From Acidaminococcus hominis (lineage in GTDB: Bacteria > Bacillota > Negativicutes > Acidaminococcales > Acidaminococcaceae): DNA of 64,000 nucleotides. The stretch covers positions 562,639 through 626,638 of the forward strand of contig NZ_OLMM01000005.1 in NCBI RefSeq assembly GCF_900291475.1. Reading direction: 5' to 3'. The notes beneath the pieces were generated by a model. It saw only the letters and a program-made list of their open reading frames with translations. It was not told the DNA's origin and ran no database searches. Of the stretch, positions 21,574 to 64,000 are shown piece by piece (the stretch's first letter is position 1; the number at the start of each line of letters is the position of its first letter). Position numbers and translations under genes: made by a program.

Positions 21574-21602
21574 TTGACTTATTTTCTTCCGCGTGCTACA
21601 CT
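21574..21602 (+). promoter_or_regulatory. promoter of the first OmpM porin
   Basis: TTGACT, 17 bases, then TACACT preceded by TGC (extended -10). It gives a leader of about 158 bases. A second TTGACT at 21507 has no well-spaced -10. Confidence 0.7.
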
Positions 21603-21608
21603 AAAACC

Positions 21609-21622
21609 GTGAAGAAATTCAC
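21609..21622 (+). other. stem-loop at the 5' end of the OmpM1 transcript
   Basis: GTGAA-GAAA-TTCAC begins seven bases after the -10, so at or next to the first transcribed base. Each other porin gene of the array has a small dyad at the same place, with different sequence. Confidence 0.5.
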
Positions 21623-21671
21623 CATTGGTCCTCCTGGGGAGCAGCGGCTGGATGCTTTGCAATGTACACGT

Positions 21672-21692
21672 AGAGGAAACAAGGATACTCGC
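21672..21692 (+). promoter_or_regulatory. conserved 21-base leader box of OmpM1
   Basis: The box begins AGAGGAAACAAGG and ends ACTCGC. It is identical in the second porin leader (23254) and differs at two bases in the fourth (27941), although the flanking leader is otherwise divergent. It lies 74 bases before the start codon and does not fold on itself. Confidence 0.65.
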
Positions 21693-21766
21693 CACGTAGG
21701 GATTGCGGAGAAACCGGAAGCCTAACCTTTGGGATGGATACATTTACACAAAGGGAGATTTTAATC

Positions 21767-23011
21767 ATGAAAAAAACGTTAGTTTTTGCAATGGCTATGG
21801 CTCTGGGCGTAAGCGCTACTGCTTTCGCAGCCAACCCGTTCTCCGATGTTCCCGCAGGCCACTGGGCTTACGGCGCAGTTGCCAAACTGGCTGCTGCTGG
21901 TATTGTGGACGGCTATCCTGATGGCACCTTCAAAGGTGAACGCACCATGACCCGTTATGAAATGGCGCAAATCGTAGCCAAGGCTCTGGCTAAGGGCGCT
22001 ATCGGCGCTGATGACAGACTGGTTAGCGAATTCGCTGACGAACTGGACAACCTGGGCGTTCGCGTAGCTAAACTGGAAAAGAACGCAGACATGGTAAAGA
22101 TTACCGGTAACGTTCGTCTGAGCAACGTTCACACCACTGGTGATATTGAAGACGCTAAAGGCGACGCTACTAAACTGCGTACCCGTCTGTTCTTCACTGG
22201 CGAAGTAAACGACAACTGGCATTACGTTTCCATGCTGGAAAACAACCAAACTTTCGATGGTCAGAATGAATCCGGCGATGATGACACCGATTTCCAACGC
22301 GCTTACCTGACCGGTAACCTGGGTGTGGTAAACATCACTGCTGGCCGTTTCGGCGGTTACTATGGCGATGGCAACATCTATGATACTCGTCAAGATGCCA
22401 TCAACGCCAACGTAAAGATGGGCCAAGCTTACCTGGGCGCTACTTGGGGCAAAATGGCTAACCAATCCGCTTACTCCTGGGCTACTAAAGCTTCCAAAGC
22501 TGACACCTTCGTTAATGCTACCCTGGGCGGCAACATTGGCAAACTGAACCTGGAAGCCCAATACCTGAAGGTTGATGATGTTGCAACCGATTGGATGAAA
22601 GGCGATGACACCATCTGGACCGCTGGTGCTACCTATGATACCGGCGACTTCAAACTGGGCGCTATGTACCTGAAAGGCGACAACGATTACGTTGATGACC
22701 AAAACGGTGATGATGACGGCTACGTTGTAACCCTGGGCTACAAAGGCGCTAAAGCTTCCAAAGCTGGTTCTTGGGGCCTGTACGGCAAGTACTACGATCA
22801 GGGCGGCGCTACCTACATCGCTCACACCATGAACGGTGCATACGATGCATTTGATGCTAACGGTTTCAAAGGCTACATGGTCGGCGGCAACTTGGCCCTG
22901 GCTAAGAACATGGTAGCATCCGTTGAATGGTATGACCTGAAGGGCAAAGGCGGCGACCTGGATGGCCAACACGCTCGTACCCTGTGGTCTCAAATGGTTG
23001 TAACGTTCTAA
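21767..23011 (+). CDS. SLH-domain outer-membrane porin, OmpM type (copy 1)
   Basis: Major porin that spans the outer membrane and holds peptidoglycan through an SLH domain. A signal peptide (1-22, ending AFA-AN) leads into one SLH domain (about 24-80: NPFSDVPAGHWAYGAVAKL, GYPDGTFKGERTMTRYEMA), a short helical linker and a beta-barrel of about 300 residues ending in phenylalanine (WSQMVVTF), the usual barrel-insertion signal. The start is the ATG at 21767, after AGGGAG. Unlike nearby genes, codons such as GCT, GGT and GTT dominate, which suggests very high expression. Strong promoter upstream, terminator downstream. Confidence 0.92.
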   Translation: MKKTLVFAMAMALGVSATAFAANPFSDVPAGHWAYGAVAKLAAAGIVDGYPDGTFKGERTMTRYEMAQIVAKALAKGAIGADDRLVSEFADELDNLGVRVAKLEKNADMVKITGNVRLSNVHTTGDIEDAKGDATKLRTRLFFTGEVNDNWHYVSMLENNQTFDGQNESGDDDTDFQRAYLTGNLGVVNITAGRFGGYYGDGNIYDTRQDAINANVKMGQAYLGATWGKMANQSAYSWATKASKADTFVNATLGGNIGKLNLEAQYLKVDDVATDWMKGDDTIWTAGATYDTGDFKLGAMYLKGDNDYVDDQNGDDDGYVVTLGYKGAKASKAGSWGLYGKYYDQGGATYIAHTMNGAYDAFDANGFKGYMVGGNLALAKNMVASVEWYDLKGKGGDLDGQHARTLWSQMVVTF

Positions 23012-23032
23012 GTAAGTTTACAAAAAGTTTTC

Positions 23033-23067
23033 AAAGACGATTCCCTTGGGGGAATCGTCTTTTTTTG
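23033..23067 (+). terminator. terminator after OmpM copy 1
   Basis: AAAGACGATTCCC pairs with GGGAATCGTCTTT and continues into a T run. Confidence 0.9.
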
Positions 23068-23155
23068 TGCGCTTTGCCTAGGCAGAATGCGGGTTTGTGA
23101 TTTATTTAACATTGTTAATAACTTTTCTCATATTTGCGATTACTCATATTAGTGG

Positions 23156-23185
23156 TTGCACGGTGCAAAATAGTTGTGTTAAAAT
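23156..23185 (+). promoter_or_regulatory. promoter of OmpM copy 2
   Basis: TTGCAC, 18 bases, TAAAAT preceded by TGT (extended -10). Confidence 0.6.
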
Positions 23186-23191
23186 AGGCAC

Positions 23192-23209
23192 GTGACAAAA
23201 TGTTGTCAC
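23192..23209 (+). other. +1 stem-loop of the OmpM2 transcript
   Basis: GTGACAA-AATG-TTGTCAC, a perfect seven-base stem starting seven bases after the -10. Confidence 0.6.
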
Positions 23210-23253
23210 AAAACCAAATACGATTCCTAGTGGCAGCGGACCATGGATAGACC

Positions 23254-23274
23254 AGAGGAAACAAGGATACTCGC
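23254..23274 (+). promoter_or_regulatory. conserved 21-base leader box of OmpM2
   Basis: Identical to the box at 21672-21692, here 63 bases before the start codon. In this leader the AGAGGA end could pair with TCCTCT about 50 bases downstream, but the other copies lack that partner. Confidence 0.65.
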
Positions 23275-23337
23275 GGTACAGATCGGTGGAAAGCTTCCAG
23301 GACGGAATCCTCTCTGATTTCCTAAGGAGGAATTCAC

Positions 23338-24579
23338 ATGAAAAAGTCTCTGGTTTTTGCAATGGCAATGGCTTTGGGCGTAAGCGCCACCGCTTTTGCT
23401 GCTAACCCCTTCTCCGATGTACCCGCTGGCTCTTGGGCCTACGGCGCTGTAGCCAAACTGGCTGCTGCTGGTATTGTGGACGGCTATCCTGATGGCACCT
23501 TCAAAGGTGAACGCACCATGACCCGTTATGAAATGGCTCAAATCGTAGCCAAAGCTCTGGCTAAAGGCGCTATCGGCGCTGATGACAGACTGGTTAGCGA
23601 ATTTGCTGACGAACTGGACAACCTGGGCGTTCGCGTTGCTAAACTGGAAAAGAACGCTGACATGGTAAAGATTACCGGTAACGTTCGTATCCACAACGTT
23701 CATAACTCCGGCGACATCAAAGCCGCTGACGCTTCCAAAGTTCGTACTCGTCTGTTCTTCACCGGCGAAGTAAACGACAACTGGCATTATGTTTCCATGC
23801 TGGAAAACAACCAAACCTTCGATGGCCAAAACGAATCCGGTGATGATGACACCGATTTCCAACGCGCTTACCTGACCGGTAACATCGGCGTTGTAAACCT
23901 GACCGGCGGCCGTTTCCAAGGCTACTACGGCGATGGCAACATCTATGATACTCGGCAAGATGCTATCAATGCCAACGTAAAGATGGGTCAAGCTTACCTG
24001 GGCGCTACCTATGGTAAAATGGCTAACCAATCCGCTTACAGCTGGTCTACTAAAACTTCCAAAGCTGATACTTTCGTTCAAGCTACCTTGGGCGGCAACA
24101 TCGGCAAACTGAACCTGGAAGCCCAATACCTGAAAGCCAATGACATTGTAACGGACTGGATGACTGGCGATGACACCATCTGGACTGCTGCTGCTACCTA
24201 TGACACCGGCGACTTCAAACTGGGTGCTATGTACCTGAAAGGCGATAACGACTCCGTTGACGATGCTAAAAATGGCGATGATGACGGCTACGTTGTAACC
24301 CTGGGCTACAAAGGCGCTAAAGCTTCCAAAGCTGGTTCTTGGGGTCTGTACGGCAAGTACTATGATCAGGGCGGCGCTACCTACATCAACCACACCATGA
24401 ACGGTGCATACGATAAATTCAATGCTGCTGGTTTCAAAGGCTACATGGTTGGCGGCAACCTGGCTCTGGCCAAGAACATGGTAGCTTCCGTTGAATGGTA
24501 TGACCTGAAAGGCAAAGGCGGCGACCTGGATGGCCAACACGCTCGTACCCTGTGGTCTCAAATGGTTGTTACGTTCTAA
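23338..24579 (+). CDS. SLH-domain outer-membrane porin, OmpM type (copy 2)
   Basis: Paralogue of copy 1 with the same architecture: signal peptide ending AFA-AN, SLH domain (about 24-80), helical linker, barrel ending WSQMVVTF; 413 residues. Long stretches are identical to copy 1, including the SLH segment and the last 60 or so residues. Differences gather in putative loops (e.g. VHNSGDIKAADASK against VHTTGDIEDAKGDATK). The pattern fits recent duplication or gene conversion with diversification of exposed loops. AAGGAGGAATTC precedes the ATG. It has its own promoter and terminator. Confidence 0.92.
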   Translation: MKKSLVFAMAMALGVSATAFAANPFSDVPAGSWAYGAVAKLAAAGIVDGYPDGTFKGERTMTRYEMAQIVAKALAKGAIGADDRLVSEFADELDNLGVRVAKLEKNADMVKITGNVRIHNVHNSGDIKAADASKVRTRLFFTGEVNDNWHYVSMLENNQTFDGQNESGDDDTDFQRAYLTGNIGVVNLTGGRFQGYYGDGNIYDTRQDAINANVKMGQAYLGATYGKMANQSAYSWSTKTSKADTFVQATLGGNIGKLNLEAQYLKANDIVTDWMTGDDTIWTAAATYDTGDFKLGAMYLKGDNDSVDDAKNGDDDGYVVTLGYKGAKASKAGSWGLYGKYYDQGGATYINHTMNGAYDKFNAAGFKGYMVGGNLALAKNMVASVEWYDLKGKGGDLDGQHARTLWSQMVVTF

Positions 24580-24597
24580 TTCCTTTAGAACTGTTAA

Positions 24598-24632
24598 GAA
24601 GACGATTTCCTCGGAAATCGTCTTCTTTTTTT
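24598..24632 (+). terminator. terminator after OmpM copy 2
   Basis: GAAGACGATTTCC / GGAAATCGTCTTC with a two-base gap between arms, then a run of T. Confidence 0.9.
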
Positions 24633-24740
24633 ACCTTGTTTTATCTCAAACGAATACTTTTAAAAGCCAGTGTCTGTAAAGCCTTGCTTTGTACCAACTG
24701 CTACAGTGTGGATAAATATACAAGGAAATGCATGAAAAAC

Positions 24741-24770
24741 CTGTACAATACCGCCCAGGCTGTGTATACT
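24741..24770 (+). promoter_or_regulatory. possible promoter of the RocB-like gene
   Basis: CTGTAC, 18 bases, TATACT, ending 50 bases before the start codon. The -35 is weak. Confidence 0.35.
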
Positions 24771-24819
24771 GGAAGACAGTTATTTTCCTAACTCAATTTG
24801 TCTGAAAGGGGAATGTGCA

Positions 24820-26370
24820 ATGGTAGAGAAAGAACGGGTGCTTACCCTCCTTCGGGAGCTGATGGCCATAGAAAGTGAAACGGGCACGGCAAAAGAAGCT
24901 GAGGCAGAACAATATCTGGCAGAGATAATTGGCAAAATGGAGCATGGCGTCCAGCTCCATACCTTTCCGGTACCGGAGGATGCCCAGGGCCGGGCGGTAA
25001 TCTGCGGCTTGCTGCCGGGGAAAAAGCCGGATACGGTGATTTTTCTGAACCACCATGATGTGGTCAGTACGGAAATCTATGGCCCCCTGCGACCCCTGGC
25101 CTGTACGCCGAATCAGCTGCTCCAGGGTCTTTTGTCAACGGAAACGGATCCTGCCGTCCTGGCGGACCTCCAAAGTGGAAAGTGGCTGCCCGGCCGGGGC
25201 TCCGCCGATATGAAGGGCGGGGCAGCGGCCCAGCTGGCTGTGCTGGAAGCCTATGCCAAGCAGGGCGGGGGAGACGTTGGCCTTCTCTTTGTGTCCCTCC
25301 CCGATGAGGAAGCCTATTCCGCAGGGATGCGTGCGGCACTGCCGGCTCTCCGGCAGCTTCAGCAGCAATTTGGCCTGAAATACCGGGCGGCCATCAACTG
25401 CGAACCCGATGAAAAGGAAGCTGGTAAACTGGTGGCTTTTACCGGGTCCGTGGGCAAGCTGCTGCCGGTAGTGCTGGTCCAGGGCAAGTCCGTTCATGTG
25501 GGCTCCTACCGCCAGGGGGTGAACCCCTTGGGGGTGATGGCCCGGATCATTGCCGCTACCGAAGGAAACCCGGCCCTGGCCGATACCTGGGAAGGGGAAA
25601 GCACGCCGCCCCCTGCCTGGGTGTACCTGAGAGACCGGAAGGAAGTGTACGACGTGTCCACGCCCCAAAGGGTGATGGCCTGTGCCAATTTCCTGACGTA
25701 TACCAAGACTCCGGAAGACCTGCTGGCCCTTTTAACGGAAACTGCACAGCAGGCTGCCCAGGAAGCCCTGGCCCAGGTGAACAACGGCCTTTCCATGGAA
25801 GTGCTCACCAGTGCCCAGCTGCTGGAACGGGCCCAAAACTTGCCGGGCTTTTCTGCCTTTTACGAAAAGCTGCTGGCGGACAGTTTTGCCAAGCTGCAGC
25901 AGGGAAAGTCCAGCTATGCCCAGGAAACCATTGCTGTTTTGGAAGCCGTTTTGGACTTTACGGGCTTTACCCAGCCCCTGGTGCTGCTCAGTTTTGCTCC
26001 TCCCTATTACCCGGCGGCCAACAGCAAGACCGTGGCCAAGGAGGACTTTGCCGGACTTTGTAAAACCCTCACCCAGCTGACGCCCCTGCGCTTTGACCCT
26101 TACTTTAATGGGGTGTCCGATTGCAGCTACTGCTGCGTAGATCCTACACTGGACGGGAAGGTCCTGGCAAAGAATATGCCCCTGTGGGGGAAGGCCTATT
26201 CCTTTGACTTTCCAGCCATTGCCCAGCTGCAGATTCCCTTTTTGCTGCTGGGGCCCTGGGGTGTGGATCTCCACCAGCGCACCGAGCGGGTGAATGTGGA
26301 AAGCGTTTCTGTTACCCTGCCCCAGCTGCTGGAGAGGGTTTTGGCCTATATGGCAGAGACGGCTGAATAA
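24820..26370 (+). CDS. M20-family peptidase, RocB-like
   Basis: A 516-residue zinc hydrolase of the M20 family resembling RocB, a protein linked to arginine use in Bacillus whose reaction is not established. Metal-site motifs are present: FLNHHDVV, GRGSADMKGG, SLPDEEAYSAG and, late, GPWGVDLHQRTERV. The protein is longer than ordinary dipeptidases of the family, as RocB proteins are. AAAGGGGA precedes the ATG. It stands alone inside the porin array, with normal GC-rich codon choice unlike the porins, so it looks like an insertion into the array or a remnant of the older gene order. Confidence 0.82.
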   Translation: MVEKERVLTLLRELMAIESETGTAKEAEAEQYLAEIIGKMEHGVQLHTFPVPEDAQGRAVICGLLPGKKPDTVIFLNHHDVVSTEIYGPLRPLACTPNQLLQGLLSTETDPAVLADLQSGKWLPGRGSADMKGGAAAQLAVLEAYAKQGGGDVGLLFVSLPDEEAYSAGMRAALPALRQLQQQFGLKYRAAINCEPDEKEAGKLVAFTGSVGKLLPVVLVQGKSVHVGSYRQGVNPLGVMARIIAATEGNPALADTWEGESTPPPAWVYLRDRKEVYDVSTPQRVMACANFLTYTKTPEDLLALLTETAQQAAQEALAQVNNGLSMEVLTSAQLLERAQNLPGFSAFYEKLLADSFAKLQQGKSSYAQETIAVLEAVLDFTGFTQPLVLLSFAPPYYPAANSKTVAKEDFAGLCKTLTQLTPLRFDPYFNGVSDCSYCCVDPTLDGKVLAKNMPLWGKAYSFDFPAIAQLQIPFLLLGPWGVDLHQRTERVNVESVSVTLPQLLERVLAYMAETAE

Positions 26371-26434
26371 AAGGCAGTAAAACGTAAAACTCCTGCAATA
26401 AAAAGATTCATATCTTGCATAAGTCACTTTAAAA

Positions 26435-26469
26435 CGCACATAGGTGTTAGTAAAACATACCTATGTGCG
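26435..26469. other. perfect inverted repeat after the RocB-like gene
   Basis: CGCACATAGGT and ACCTATGTGCG surround a 13-base loop. No T run follows, so a classical terminator is doubtful; an operator or RNA-stabilising hairpin is possible. Confidence 0.5.
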
Positions 26470-26536
26470 CTATTCATGTACAAAATTATAGAAATTATGC
26501 AGAAATAAATTTAATGTGAAAATTATTGTCATAATA

Positions 26537-26545
26537 TGCTACAAT
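26537..26545 (+). promoter_or_regulatory. extended -10 promoter of OmpM copy 3
   Basis: TGC-TACAAT without a recognisable -35. Confidence 0.45.
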
Positions 26546-26552
26546 ACAGTTA

Positions 26553-26568
26553 GGACATGATTTTGTCA
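26553..26568 (+). other. +1 dyad of the OmpM3 transcript
   Basis: GGACA-N6-TGTCA begins eight bases after the -10, as in copy 2. Confidence 0.45.
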
Positions 26569-26631
26569 CATTTATAGAACAGCTTCTGCTGCCAGGAGTG
26601 CGTATCAGGAAACTTGAAGGGGGAATGGGTC

Positions 26632-27684
26632 ATGAAGAAGCAAAGCGTTCTTGCTATGGTTTTGGCATTGGGCATCAGTTCCAATGCCTATGCAGTGAAC
26701 CCATTTTCCGATGTGCCTAAAGGTTCCTGGGCCTATGGCGCTGTAGCAAAATTGGCGGCTGGCCTGGAGAGCAGAGAATCGACTGGCACCTTCCCGGGAA
26801 AGTATCCTGAGACCCGTTACGAAATGGCCCAAATCGTGGCAAAAGCATTGGCCCAAGGAACCATCGGTGCAGATAACAGGCTGGTCCGGGAATTTGCCCA
26901 GGAACTGGACCTGCTGGGCGCCCGGATGCCCCTGCCGGAACGGCCTGCTGGAAGCGGCAAAACTACCAGCAGCCTCAGGGAAGGTGCTTTGCGCCCCAAC
27001 GTGGAGCAGGGCAAATTGGACGGGGAAACGGCCCCGCAGCTCCGGCCCTGGTTTTTAGGGACAGAGAACGCCAAAGTGCAGTTTGGTCAAACCTACCTGG
27101 CGGCCTTCGGCAGCAGGGCGGGGCAGCCGGTCTCTGGCTGGACCGCCCAAACAGAAGGCAAAACAGCCACAGAGGACGGCTTCACCGGCGCTGCCTTGGG
27201 CGGCACCCTTGGCAGCCTGAGCCTGGAGGCCCAGTACCTGAAAGCTTCGCCCCAGACTGCCCCCTGGGTTCCAGAAGAAGATACCCTTTGGACAGCAGGC
27301 GCCGCCTATCACTTTGGGCCTGTGAGCGTGGGCGGAATGTATCTGAAAGGCGGCAGCGATTCCGCAGCTGAACCTGGCGCTAGTGACGAGGGCTACGTCA
27401 TCAACCTGCGCTACAAAGGCGCAGAGGCGGCCAAAACCGGCAGTTGGGGCCTTTTCGGCAATTACTACGACCAGGGCGGCACTGCCTATCTTTCCCGTAC
27501 CCTGAATGGAGCCTACAGCGCCTTTGAGCCCCAGGGCTTTACCGGCTATATGGTGGGCGGCAATTTGACCCTGGCCAAGAATATGGTGGCCCAGGTGGAA
27601 TATTATGATCTCCAAGGGAAGGGCAACGGCCAGGAAGGCCAGCATGCCCGGACCCTGTGGTCGCAAATGGTGGTCACTTTCTAA
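26632..27684 (+). CDS. shortened, divergent OmpM-type porin (copy 3)
   Basis: Related to the neighbouring porins but only 350 residues. The signal peptide (ending AYA-VN) and the first SLH half (NPFSDVPKGSWAYGAVAKLAA) are kept. The DGYPDGTFKG motif is replaced by ESRESTGTFPGKY, and about 65 residues of the first barrel strands are missing or scrambled (residues about 100-140). The second half of the barrel and the terminal WSQMVVTF are intact. Codon use is ordinary GC-rich, not the biased set of copies 1 and 2. The leader lacks the 21-base box. I start at the ATG at 26632, after GAAGGGGGA. The frame is open, so a functional small variant is possible, but it looks like a decaying copy. Confidence 0.75.
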   Translation: MKKQSVLAMVLALGISSNAYAVNPFSDVPKGSWAYGAVAKLAAGLESRESTGTFPGKYPETRYEMAQIVAKALAQGTIGADNRLVREFAQELDLLGARMPLPERPAGSGKTTSSLREGALRPNVEQGKLDGETAPQLRPWFLGTENAKVQFGQTYLAAFGSRAGQPVSGWTAQTEGKTATEDGFTGAALGGTLGSLSLEAQYLKASPQTAPWVPEEDTLWTAGAAYHFGPVSVGGMYLKGGSDSAAEPGASDEGYVINLRYKGAEAAKTGSWGLFGNYYDQGGTAYLSRTLNGAYSAFEPQGFTGYMVGGNLTLAKNMVAQVEYYDLQGKGNGQEGQHARTLWSQMVVTF

Positions 27685-27690
27685 ATAGGT

Positions 27691-27724
27691 AAAAGGAGCT
27701 ATCGTTCGGAATAGCTCCTTTTTG
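27691..27724 (+). terminator. terminator after OmpM copy 3
   Basis: AAAAGGAGCTAT pairs with ATAGCTCCTTTT, followed by further T. Confidence 0.85.
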
Positions 27725-27858
27725 TTATGCAGAAAAGTAATTTAAAAAACAAAAACAATTAATAAAAAGCATAAAGTGGATGAACTGTAGCTTTTTATAC
27801 AATTTTTAGAGGTTACTTCGCCTAAAAGTACCGCAAAATCAAAAAAATAGCTAAAAAA

Positions 27859-27888
27859 TTGTCCGGAAATTTCTTTTTGTGATAGAAT
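27859..27888 (+). promoter_or_regulatory. promoter of OmpM copy 4
   Basis: TTGTCC, 18 bases, TAGAAT preceded by TGA (extended -10). Confidence 0.65.
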
Positions 27889-27894
27889 TGAAAA

Positions 27895-27910
27895 AGACAA
27901 ATTTCTGTCA
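27895..27910 (+). other. +1 dyad of the OmpM4 transcript
   Basis: AGACA-N6-TGTCA starts seven bases after the -10. Confidence 0.45.
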
Positions 27911-27940
27911 AACTTTGGCTTTGCAGCTGCCGGACCGAAC

Positions 27941-27961
27941 AGAGGAAACAAGGCGACTCGC
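27941..27961 (+). promoter_or_regulatory. conserved 21-base leader box of OmpM4
   Basis: Same box as at 21672 and 23254, with CG in place of AT at positions 14-15. It lies 45 bases before the start codon. Confidence 0.65.
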
Positions 27962-28006
27962 GGGAGGAAGGGCAATGCAGGCCAAACCATTCAAGGAGGA
28001 ATTCCC

Positions 28007-29254
28007 ATGAAAAAATCCCTGGTATTTGCCATGGCCATGGCTCTGGGCGTAAGCGCCACTGCCTTTGCGGCCAACCCCTTCTCCGATGTGCCCGCAGGCT
28101 CCTGGGCCTACGGCGCTGTAGCCAAACTGGCTGCTGCTGGTATTGTTGACGGCTACCCTGATGGCACCTTCAAAGGTGAACGCACCATGACCCGTTATGA
28201 AATGGCCCAAATCGTGGCCAAGGCCCTGGCCAAAGGCGCTATCGGCGCTGATGACAGACTGGTCAGCGAATTCGCTGACGAACTGGACAATCTGGGCGTG
28301 CGCGTAGCCAAACTGGAACGCAATGCGGACAATGTGAAGATTACCGGTAACGTTCGTCTGAGCAACGTTCATACCACTGGTGATTACGGTAAATCCGATG
28401 CCACCAAACTGCGTACCCGTCTGTTCTTCACCGGCGATGTAAATGACAACTGGAACTACGTTGCTATGATTGAAAACAACCAAGTATTTGATGGTCAAAA
28501 CGAATCCGGCAATGATGACACCGATTTCCAACGGGCTTATCTCACCGGCAACATCGGTGTAGTCAACGTAACTGCCGGCCGTTACGACACCTACTACAGC
28601 GACGGCAACGTGTACGATGACCGGGTAGATGCAGTAAACGCCAAAGTGAAATTTGGCCAAACCTACCTGGCTGCTACCTACGGCAAAATGGGCAACGCTT
28701 CCACCTATTCCTGGTCCACTGACGGCACCAGACAGGGCGTAGGCGACAAATTCGTCCAAGCTACTCTGGGCGGGGACATCGGCAAATTGAACCTGGAAGC
28801 TGCCTACCTGAAAGCCGACGACATCAACACCACCTGGATGACCGGTGATGACAAGATCTGGACGGCTGCAGCCAACTATAACTTTGGGGATGCCAGCCTG
28901 GGTGCTATGTACCTGAAGGGCGACAATGACTCCGTGGATAAGGCCAACGGCGATGATGACGGCTACGTCATCAGCCTGAACTACAAAGGCGCAGAAGCTG
29001 CCAAACCCGGCACCTGGGGCCTGTTTGCCAAATACTACGACCAAGGCGGCGCAACCTACATTGCCCACACCATGGATGGCGCTTACGATGTCTTCGATGC
29101 CAACGGCTTCAAAGGCTATCAAGTAGGCGGCAACCTGACCCTGGCCAAGAACATGGTAGCCCAAGTGGAATACTATGATCTGAAGAGCAAAGGCGGCACC
29201 TATGACGGACAACACGCCCGCACCCTGTGGTCTCAAATGGTAGTAACCTTCTAA
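28007..29254 (+). CDS. SLH-domain outer-membrane porin, OmpM type (copy 4)
   Basis: Full-length paralogue (415 residues) with signal peptide ending AFA-AN, SLH domain almost identical to copies 1 and 2, helical linker and a barrel ending WSQMVVTF. The barrel is more divergent than between copies 1 and 2 (RYDTYYSDGNVYDDRVDAV, STDGTRQGVGDKF). Codon use lies between that of copies 1-2 and ordinary genes: the 5' part shared with the other copies keeps the biased codons, as gene conversion would leave. AAGGAGGAATTC precedes the ATG, as in copy 2. Confidence 0.92.
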   Translation: MKKSLVFAMAMALGVSATAFAANPFSDVPAGSWAYGAVAKLAAAGIVDGYPDGTFKGERTMTRYEMAQIVAKALAKGAIGADDRLVSEFADELDNLGVRVAKLERNADNVKITGNVRLSNVHTTGDYGKSDATKLRTRLFFTGDVNDNWNYVAMIENNQVFDGQNESGNDDTDFQRAYLTGNIGVVNVTAGRYDTYYSDGNVYDDRVDAVNAKVKFGQTYLAATYGKMGNASTYSWSTDGTRQGVGDKFVQATLGGDIGKLNLEAAYLKADDINTTWMTGDDKIWTAAANYNFGDASLGAMYLKGDNDSVDKANGDDDGYVISLNYKGAEAAKPGTWGLFAKYYDQGGATYIAHTMDGAYDVFDANGFKGYQVGGNLTLAKNMVAQVEYYDLKSKGGTYDGQHARTLWSQMVVTF

Positions 29255-29360: not shown

Positions 29361-29545
29361 GAAATTTAACATGCTGGTAACATGCTTTTTGCATTGGAAA
29401 AGAGCCGGTAAGTCTGGGAAAGCCGCATGAAAGCAGGGAAATTTAACATGCCGGTAACATGCTTTTTTGCGTTGGAACAGAATCAGTAAGTCTGGAGAAG
29501 CCGCATGAAAGCTGGATAATCTAACATGCTGGTAATTTGCTTTTC
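29361..29545. repeat. tandem repeat of 77-78 bases, about 2.3 units
   Basis: The block AATTTAACATG...GGTAACATGC recurs at 29363, 29440 and, with changes, 29518. Units 1 and 2 also share TAAGTCTGG and AAGCCGCATGAAAGC. The third unit breaks off after about 28 bases. It lies between two terminators and has no open frame of note. Confidence 0.8.
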
Positions 29546-63805: not shown

Positions 63806-64000
63806 ATTTTGGAGAGTTTGATCCTGGCTCAGGACGAACGCTGGCGGCGTGCTTAACACATGCAAGTCGAACGGAGAATTTATTTCGGTAAATTCTTAGT
63901 GGCGAACGGGTGAGTAACGCGTAGGCAACCTGCCCTCCAGTTGGGGACAACATTCCGAAAGGAATGCTAATACCGAATGTGATCCCTTTTCCGCATGGAG
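63806..64000 (+). rRNA. rrs: 16S ribosomal RNA, 5' part
   Basis: GGAGAGTTTGATCCTGGCTC at 63811 is the universal 16S start, followed by GGACGAACGCTGGCGGCGTG and AGTGGCGAACGGGTGAGTAA. The gene runs off the right edge. The mature 5' end is set about five bases before GGAGAG by analogy with E. coli. The V1 region (AACGGAGAATTTATTTCGG) looks like Acidaminococcaceae. Confidence 0.98.

Follow-up and report, generated by a model that had tools for sequence, protein, structure and literature searches.

In members of the cyanobacterial Yfr2 family a long stem, bulged at position -4, carries a loop of 12 nt. Voss et al. proposed protein or RNA partners for them, the idea of a protein being based on the loop in combination with the bulge (PMC2662882). 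Yfr2 binds Yfr1 by means of its own 5' motif (PMC6778093); Yfr1 in turn targets porins, TonB receptors and Omp85 in Nostoc (PMC6974561). A stabilising precedent for leaders of outer-membrane protein (OMP) mRNAs is the 5' UTR of E. coli ompA (PMC2777011). For OMP leaders of diderm Firmicutes, the literature searched contains no mention of an RNA element.

Porin genes and leaders of Acidaminococcus hominis

The window, a 64-kb stretch of Acidaminococcus hominis contig NZ_OLMM01000005.1 (forward strand) that was analysed as a whole and to whose positions all coordinates refer, contains four OmpM-type porin ORFs, all of them, like their leader features, on the plus strand. Copies 1 (21767–23011), 2 (23338–24579) and 4 (28007–29254) combine a barrel with an SLH domain recognised by Pfam. 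Copy 2 matches PDB entries 8bys and 8bym, which are solved S-layer homology porins (V. parvula OmpM, PMC10628300). Copy 3 (26632–27684) represents a shortened OmpM; its frame is open, the barrel is reduced and Pfam recognises no SLH domain. Immediately 3' of porin 4 lies a 78-bp tandem repeat (29361–29544; 2.4 copies, 85% match), and the start of a 16S rRNA gene is situated at the window edge (63806–64000).

The -10 hexamers of copies 1 to 4 read TACACT, TAAAAT, TACAAT and TAGAAT, with extended -10 elements in copy 1 (TGc TACACT, hexamer at 21597–21602) and copy 2 (TAAAAT, 23180–23185), both identified by sequence and genus comparison. With transcription starts placed from the -10 elements alone, a dyad begins 6–8 bases further down in each of the four leaders, as the initial annotation had described. 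These dyads are GTGAA/TTCAC in copy 1 (21609–21622; fold z -3.9), GTGACAA/TTGTCAC in copy 2 (23192–23209; fold z -3.0) and GACA/TGTC in copies 3 (26554–26567) and 4 (27896–27909), the last of which folds weakly (z -1.7). Across the genus, a -10 element and, at the right offset behind it, a stem of 4 bp or longer are found together in 23 of 27 leaders, compared with 11–15 at control offsets and 8 in shuffled sequences. The expectation that the pairing is kept while the sequence changes, as in an RNA structure, agrees with six differing paired stems in the genus: GTGAA/TTCAC, GTGACAA/TTGTCAC, GCAAGA/TCTTGC, GTAAGC/GCTTAC, CAGCGGA/TCCGCTG and GTGG/CCAC.

Further down, copies 1, 2 and 4 carry the 21-base box AGAGGAAACAAGGNNACTCGC as an exact match at 21672–21692, 23254–23274 and 27941–27961, respectively, and no additional match within 3 mismatches exists in the 64 kb (chance expectation 0.02). 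One more good copy lies in the same genome, 14.6 kb beyond the end of the window and in front of another OmpM gene, and the box pattern is matched in all nine genomes of the genus (9/9). The leader of copy 3, which had been noted as lacking the box, indeed contains neither a box nor a match to the covariance models described below; the only remnant is AGGAAAC at 26607–26613, and model search and folding place no leader hairpin behind its dyad. Loss of the hairpin with retention of the dyad fits an element that serves working porin genes, in this single case.

Rearranged boxes were observed in one relative (G008). At one locus (G008:C6:1443132) the 3' half of the box is broken and followed by unrelated sequence without a porin, a break that looks like an insertion or rearrangement. 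At another, two boxed porin leaders lie 1.1 kb apart and one porin gene is without its start, which reads as a deletion between tandem porins.

A predicted hairpin with a near-invariant loop

Alignments and covariance models (R1, built from the 27 genus copies, and R2) place the box at the apical tip of a long, irregular RNA hairpin of about 79 nt. The R2 model locates this predicted hairpin at 21643–21721 in copy 1 (42.0 bits, E 3.3e-11; fold z -2.9), at 23225–23303 in copy 2 (41.1 bits, E 6.8e-11; fold z -2.3) and at 27912–27990 in copy 4 (41.3 bits, E 6.3e-11; fold z -1.5). The box itself comprises the 12-nt apical loop GAAACNNGGNNA and the closing helix GAG/CUC; aligned with its relatives, the box of copy 1 also includes the 3' bulge. 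The helix below is divided into four parts. P4, 3–4 bp long, closes the loop, and a single 3' base bulges out just below it. Further down come P3 (3 bp), a first internal loop (about 3x3 to 4x4), P2 (about 8 bp), a further internal loop and P1 (about 6 bp).

The initial annotation had considered the box not to be base-paired in a conserved way, a view that the alignments contradict. In the 27 genus copies the 12-nt loop is closed by the box termini, GAG and CTC, and the flanks lengthen the helix by covarying columns that hold U-A, C-G, G-C or A-U at the same positions. A fold test was carried out on 80 non-redundant copies, in which the core was held and shuffled flanks served as control. The flanks fold across the core with a mean z of -2.07 (z below -1 in 86% of copies), and at least 10 flank-flank pairs are formed in 78 of the 80. 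In a plain MAFFT alignment, not fitted to the structure, 395 pair changes affect both sides, compared with 251 after shuffling; the covariation score of 0.325 exceeds that of every slid control (0.221 at most). P3 and P4 were found unaided by RNAalifold. Against a null simulated along a tree, P3 and every P2 pair stand out at p values of 0.003–0.04, which are rough due to a tree built from the same short alignment, and P1 and the outermost P4 pair give mixed results.

The closing helix changes while the loop stays the same. AGAG/CUCG, whose lowest pair is an A-G mismatch, is the commonest form in the genus, and AGAG/CUCU, UGAG/CUCA, GGAG/CUCC, UAAG/CUUA, AAAG/CUUU and GAAG/CUUC occur in the wider set. 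Among 79 tabulated loops, positions 2–5 (AAAC), 8–9 (GG) and 12 (A) are invariant and position 1 is G in 77. Positions 6, 7, 10 and 11 vary, also among the leaders of one genome; one genome (G013) has four loop variants, all with GAAAC, GG and A. The same arrangement was found inside unrelated flanks in the new copies retrieved by the R1 search. This pattern bears on the alternative that the box is an operator bound in the DNA by a transcription factor. A conserved sequence at a fixed place after the promoters would speak for that. A conserved loop between covarying arms is the reverse of a DNA palindrome, and the counterpart in cyanobacteria is a transcribed RNA, so that an operator is hardly credible.

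From the end of the loop core to the start codon the distance is about 70 nt, and the hairpin does not include the Shine-Dalgarno sequence. This placement ahead of Shine-Dalgarno sequence and ORF points to a leader rather than a separate transcript. An upstream ORF through the box was rejected, as it is in frame in copy 2 only, copies 1 and 4 offering other frames or no ATG, and the variable loop positions alter codons. The copy 2 frame starts with ATG and runs for about 25 codons across the box within 23244–23320; it is not conserved in copies 1 and 4. A CsrA site (GGA, ANGGA) was not supported either: part of the GGA is taken up by the closing helix, and neither the fixed GAAAC nor A12 would be accounted for.

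Distribution and downstream genes

R1 matched 49 of 59 family genomes and 127 of the 300 genomes sampled from the class; R2 matched 298 of 380 Negativicutes genomes, representing 80 of 102 genera. Lack of the box in related genomes, which the initial annotation had named as a refutation, was therefore not observed. The element is confirmed in genus and class as a common property of porin leaders, and it is very probably read by a trans-acting factor, as had been suggested. In a phylum-wide sample, R2 matched 35 of 199 genomes, including Halanaerobium sp. MA284 and Candidatus Frackibacter WG13. Two more phylum-level groups, sampled around bacterium RA.bin91 and Candidatus Cloacimonadota, carry the element in front of SLH porins and one non-SLH barrel candidate. 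The control phylum, that of a Neokomagataea MAG (Alphaproteobacteria) and hence taken as Pseudomonadota, gave R2 matches in 5 of 200 genomes, none below E 0.0039, which is close to chance.

A genome-wide scan with one variant of P4 yielded 33 stretches. The ones from Sporomusa, Pelosinus, Selenomonas, Halanaerobium and Frackibacter stand before OMP genes and most others look like chance; matches to the pattern that lack an OMP gene, as in Bacteroidota and Limosilactobacillus among others, do not exceed the chance level. When 18 genomes were scanned more deeply, the significant matches were OMP leaders, and the five exceptions that were read (L195, L197, L198, L199 and L202) are weak (E 0.005 to 0.3).

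As judged from the predicted products, nearly every genuine copy of the element appears to stand before an outer-membrane protein gene. Within the class, an SLH porin follows 82 of the 85 copies with a readable gene. The three others are a TonB-dependent receptor (L023), the deleted porin gene at the tandem locus described above (L021) and a gene that is really a porin, for which the automatic reading had taken the wrong frame (L089). The phylum-wide set comprises 22 SLH proteins and 13 with a signal peptide and no SLH domain, Pfam naming Porin_4 in several of the genes. Signal peptides and barrel-like starts are likewise present in two further genes that the automatic reading had missed (L124, L137), and two matches (L111, L129) look like false positives. 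The unnamed signal-peptide genes may accordingly be regarded as candidate barrels. The TonB-dependent receptor leader (L023/L205, G002:C1), in which the element adjoins the inverted repeat TTAGTTATAACTAA, belongs to a genome of the genus, where the element is thus found on a non-porin OMP gene.

The +1 hairpin does not share this breadth. As a general partner of the element it was rejected: outside the genus, stems of at least 4 bp occur in 36 of 67 leaders, compared with 33–39 at control offsets. The box hairpin extends across the class and further and serves outer-membrane genes in general, whereas the +1 hairpin is a separate, genus-level layer. By analogy with ompA, the likely role of the +1 hairpin is protection of the 5' end; the mRNAs of the genus appear to begin at or near this hairpin, which would shield them as the ompA stem-loop does. 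Common to both systems would be an OMP mRNA with a 5'-terminal stem-loop, which in the genus is predicted, together with further structure in the leader and an expected post-transcriptional control. The ompA 5' UTR differs in lacking a conserved apical loop of the GAAACNNGGNNA kind and belongs to a different phylum. To our knowledge, no sequence related to the leader hairpin has been described for ompA.

The leader hairpins might likewise be intrinsic stabilisers only, which block entry of a 5' exonuclease or RNase and need no trans-acting factor. Such a function would be in keeping with the length of the hairpin and the abundance of the encoded proteins, with the +1 hairpin added in the genus and with the ompA precedent (PMC2777011). 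However, a stabiliser has no need for a 12-nt loop that is fixed across phyla while the stems all change, which renders this explanation quite improbable.

Likeness to Yfr2 and a possible reader of the loop

No Rfam 15 family reaches its gathering score in the leaders. Cyano-1 (RF01701), which we take to be Yfr2 and whose description agrees with that of Yfr2, scores 36.5, 30.3 and 26.5 bits on the element at three loci. Run blind on 379 genomes of the class, it exceeded the gathering cut-off of 41 in none (0/379), with 38.8 bits as best score and 2.5e-5 as best E per genome in Negativicutes. All ten of the best Cyano-1 loci in the class coincide with R2 elements; nine stand before a readable start of an outer-membrane gene and one at a contig end. 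In the reciprocal direction, plasmid and phage records contained no match to the consensus of Cyano-1.

Both RNAs share a 12-nt loop fitting GAAACNNGGNNA, a 3-bp closing helix and a one-base 3' bulge and, further down, a 3-bp helix, a 3x3 internal loop and a variable lower stem. The leader hairpin thus shows the design of the Yfr2 family, in which a long stem ends in a loop of 12 nt and is bulged three to four pairs beneath it. Cyano-1 is a free small RNA of cyanobacteria, in contrast to the Negativicutes hairpin, which is part of outer-membrane gene leaders. Moreover, the 5' motif by which Yfr2 pairs with Yfr1 is absent from these leaders, so that only the stem-loop is common. In the control of cyanobacterial outer-membrane mRNAs by Yfr1, too, a conserved RNA network touches OMP genes, there porins, TonB receptors and Omp85; however, Yfr1 pairs with its targets in trans, whereas the Negativicutes element is a cis hairpin for which no Yfr1-like partner was found.

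Porin and other OMP mRNAs are classic targets of small RNAs, as in E. coli. The loop could in the same way be the target of a trans-acting small RNA pairing with GAAAC..GG, and the precedent of Yfr1 in cyanobacteria (PMC6974561) as well as a loop that is single-stranded in the model agree with this. However, the variable positions 6, 7, 10 and 11 interrupt a continuous seed. The suggested small RNA with a complement to the box did not emerge: on the opposite strand of the own genome, a search allowing up to 3 mismatches returned a single 3-mismatch match before an unrelated gene. With 1 mismatch allowed, the Yfr1-pairing motif GTGAGGAG / GUGAGGAG is present in 6 of 127 leaders, compared with 2.8 in shuffled sequences (maximum 8), and is not clearly enriched. 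A small-RNA target site is therefore an unlikely explanation. The loop might also pair with another part of the leader upon ligand binding, as in a small riboswitch or pseudoknot; this is still less probable, and by a wide measure. Short loop complements are slightly in excess (3.7 vs 2.8 nt downstream, 4.0 vs 3.5 upstream), but this excess is small, a second conserved block is not apparent by eye in the leaders and the Shine-Dalgarno sequence is not in the hairpin.

A fixed loop and bulge on freely changing stems argue for a reader of the loop. We favour the view that the leader hairpin regulates in cis, as a site to which a conserved trans-acting factor docks, the most likely candidate being an RNA-binding protein, and assign this reading a probability of roughly 0.6. 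A protein is considered more likely than a small RNA because four loop variants occur in the one genome mentioned above; intrinsic folding or RNA-RNA contacts could also account for the invariance of the loop. The protein would read loop and bulge, and the factor would set translation or decay of these abundant mRNAs jointly. In Yfr2/Cyano-1, where the same hairpin exists in trans, the same factor may act.

The likeness between Yfr2 and the leader hairpin may reflect either common descent or convergence. More tentatively, and as a possibility that we consider doubtful, the hairpin might be an ancestral, protein-read regulatory RNA of OMP genes, and Yfr2 the same module freed as a trans decoy; this reading covers diderm Firmicutes and other diderm lineages retaining the hairpin.

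RNA-level control of OMPs in diderm Firmicutes is unstudied as far as the literature search shows. Comparison of the leaders suggests that control over outer-membrane protein production probably has in this hairpin a point that is both old and shared. A leader RNA common to Negativicutes, Halanaerobiales and further groups provides a single testable entry point to this control and bears on whether the outer membranes of these lineages come from a common ancestor. By its tie to outer-membrane protein genes, it also offers a role for the loop of Yfr2/Cyano-1.
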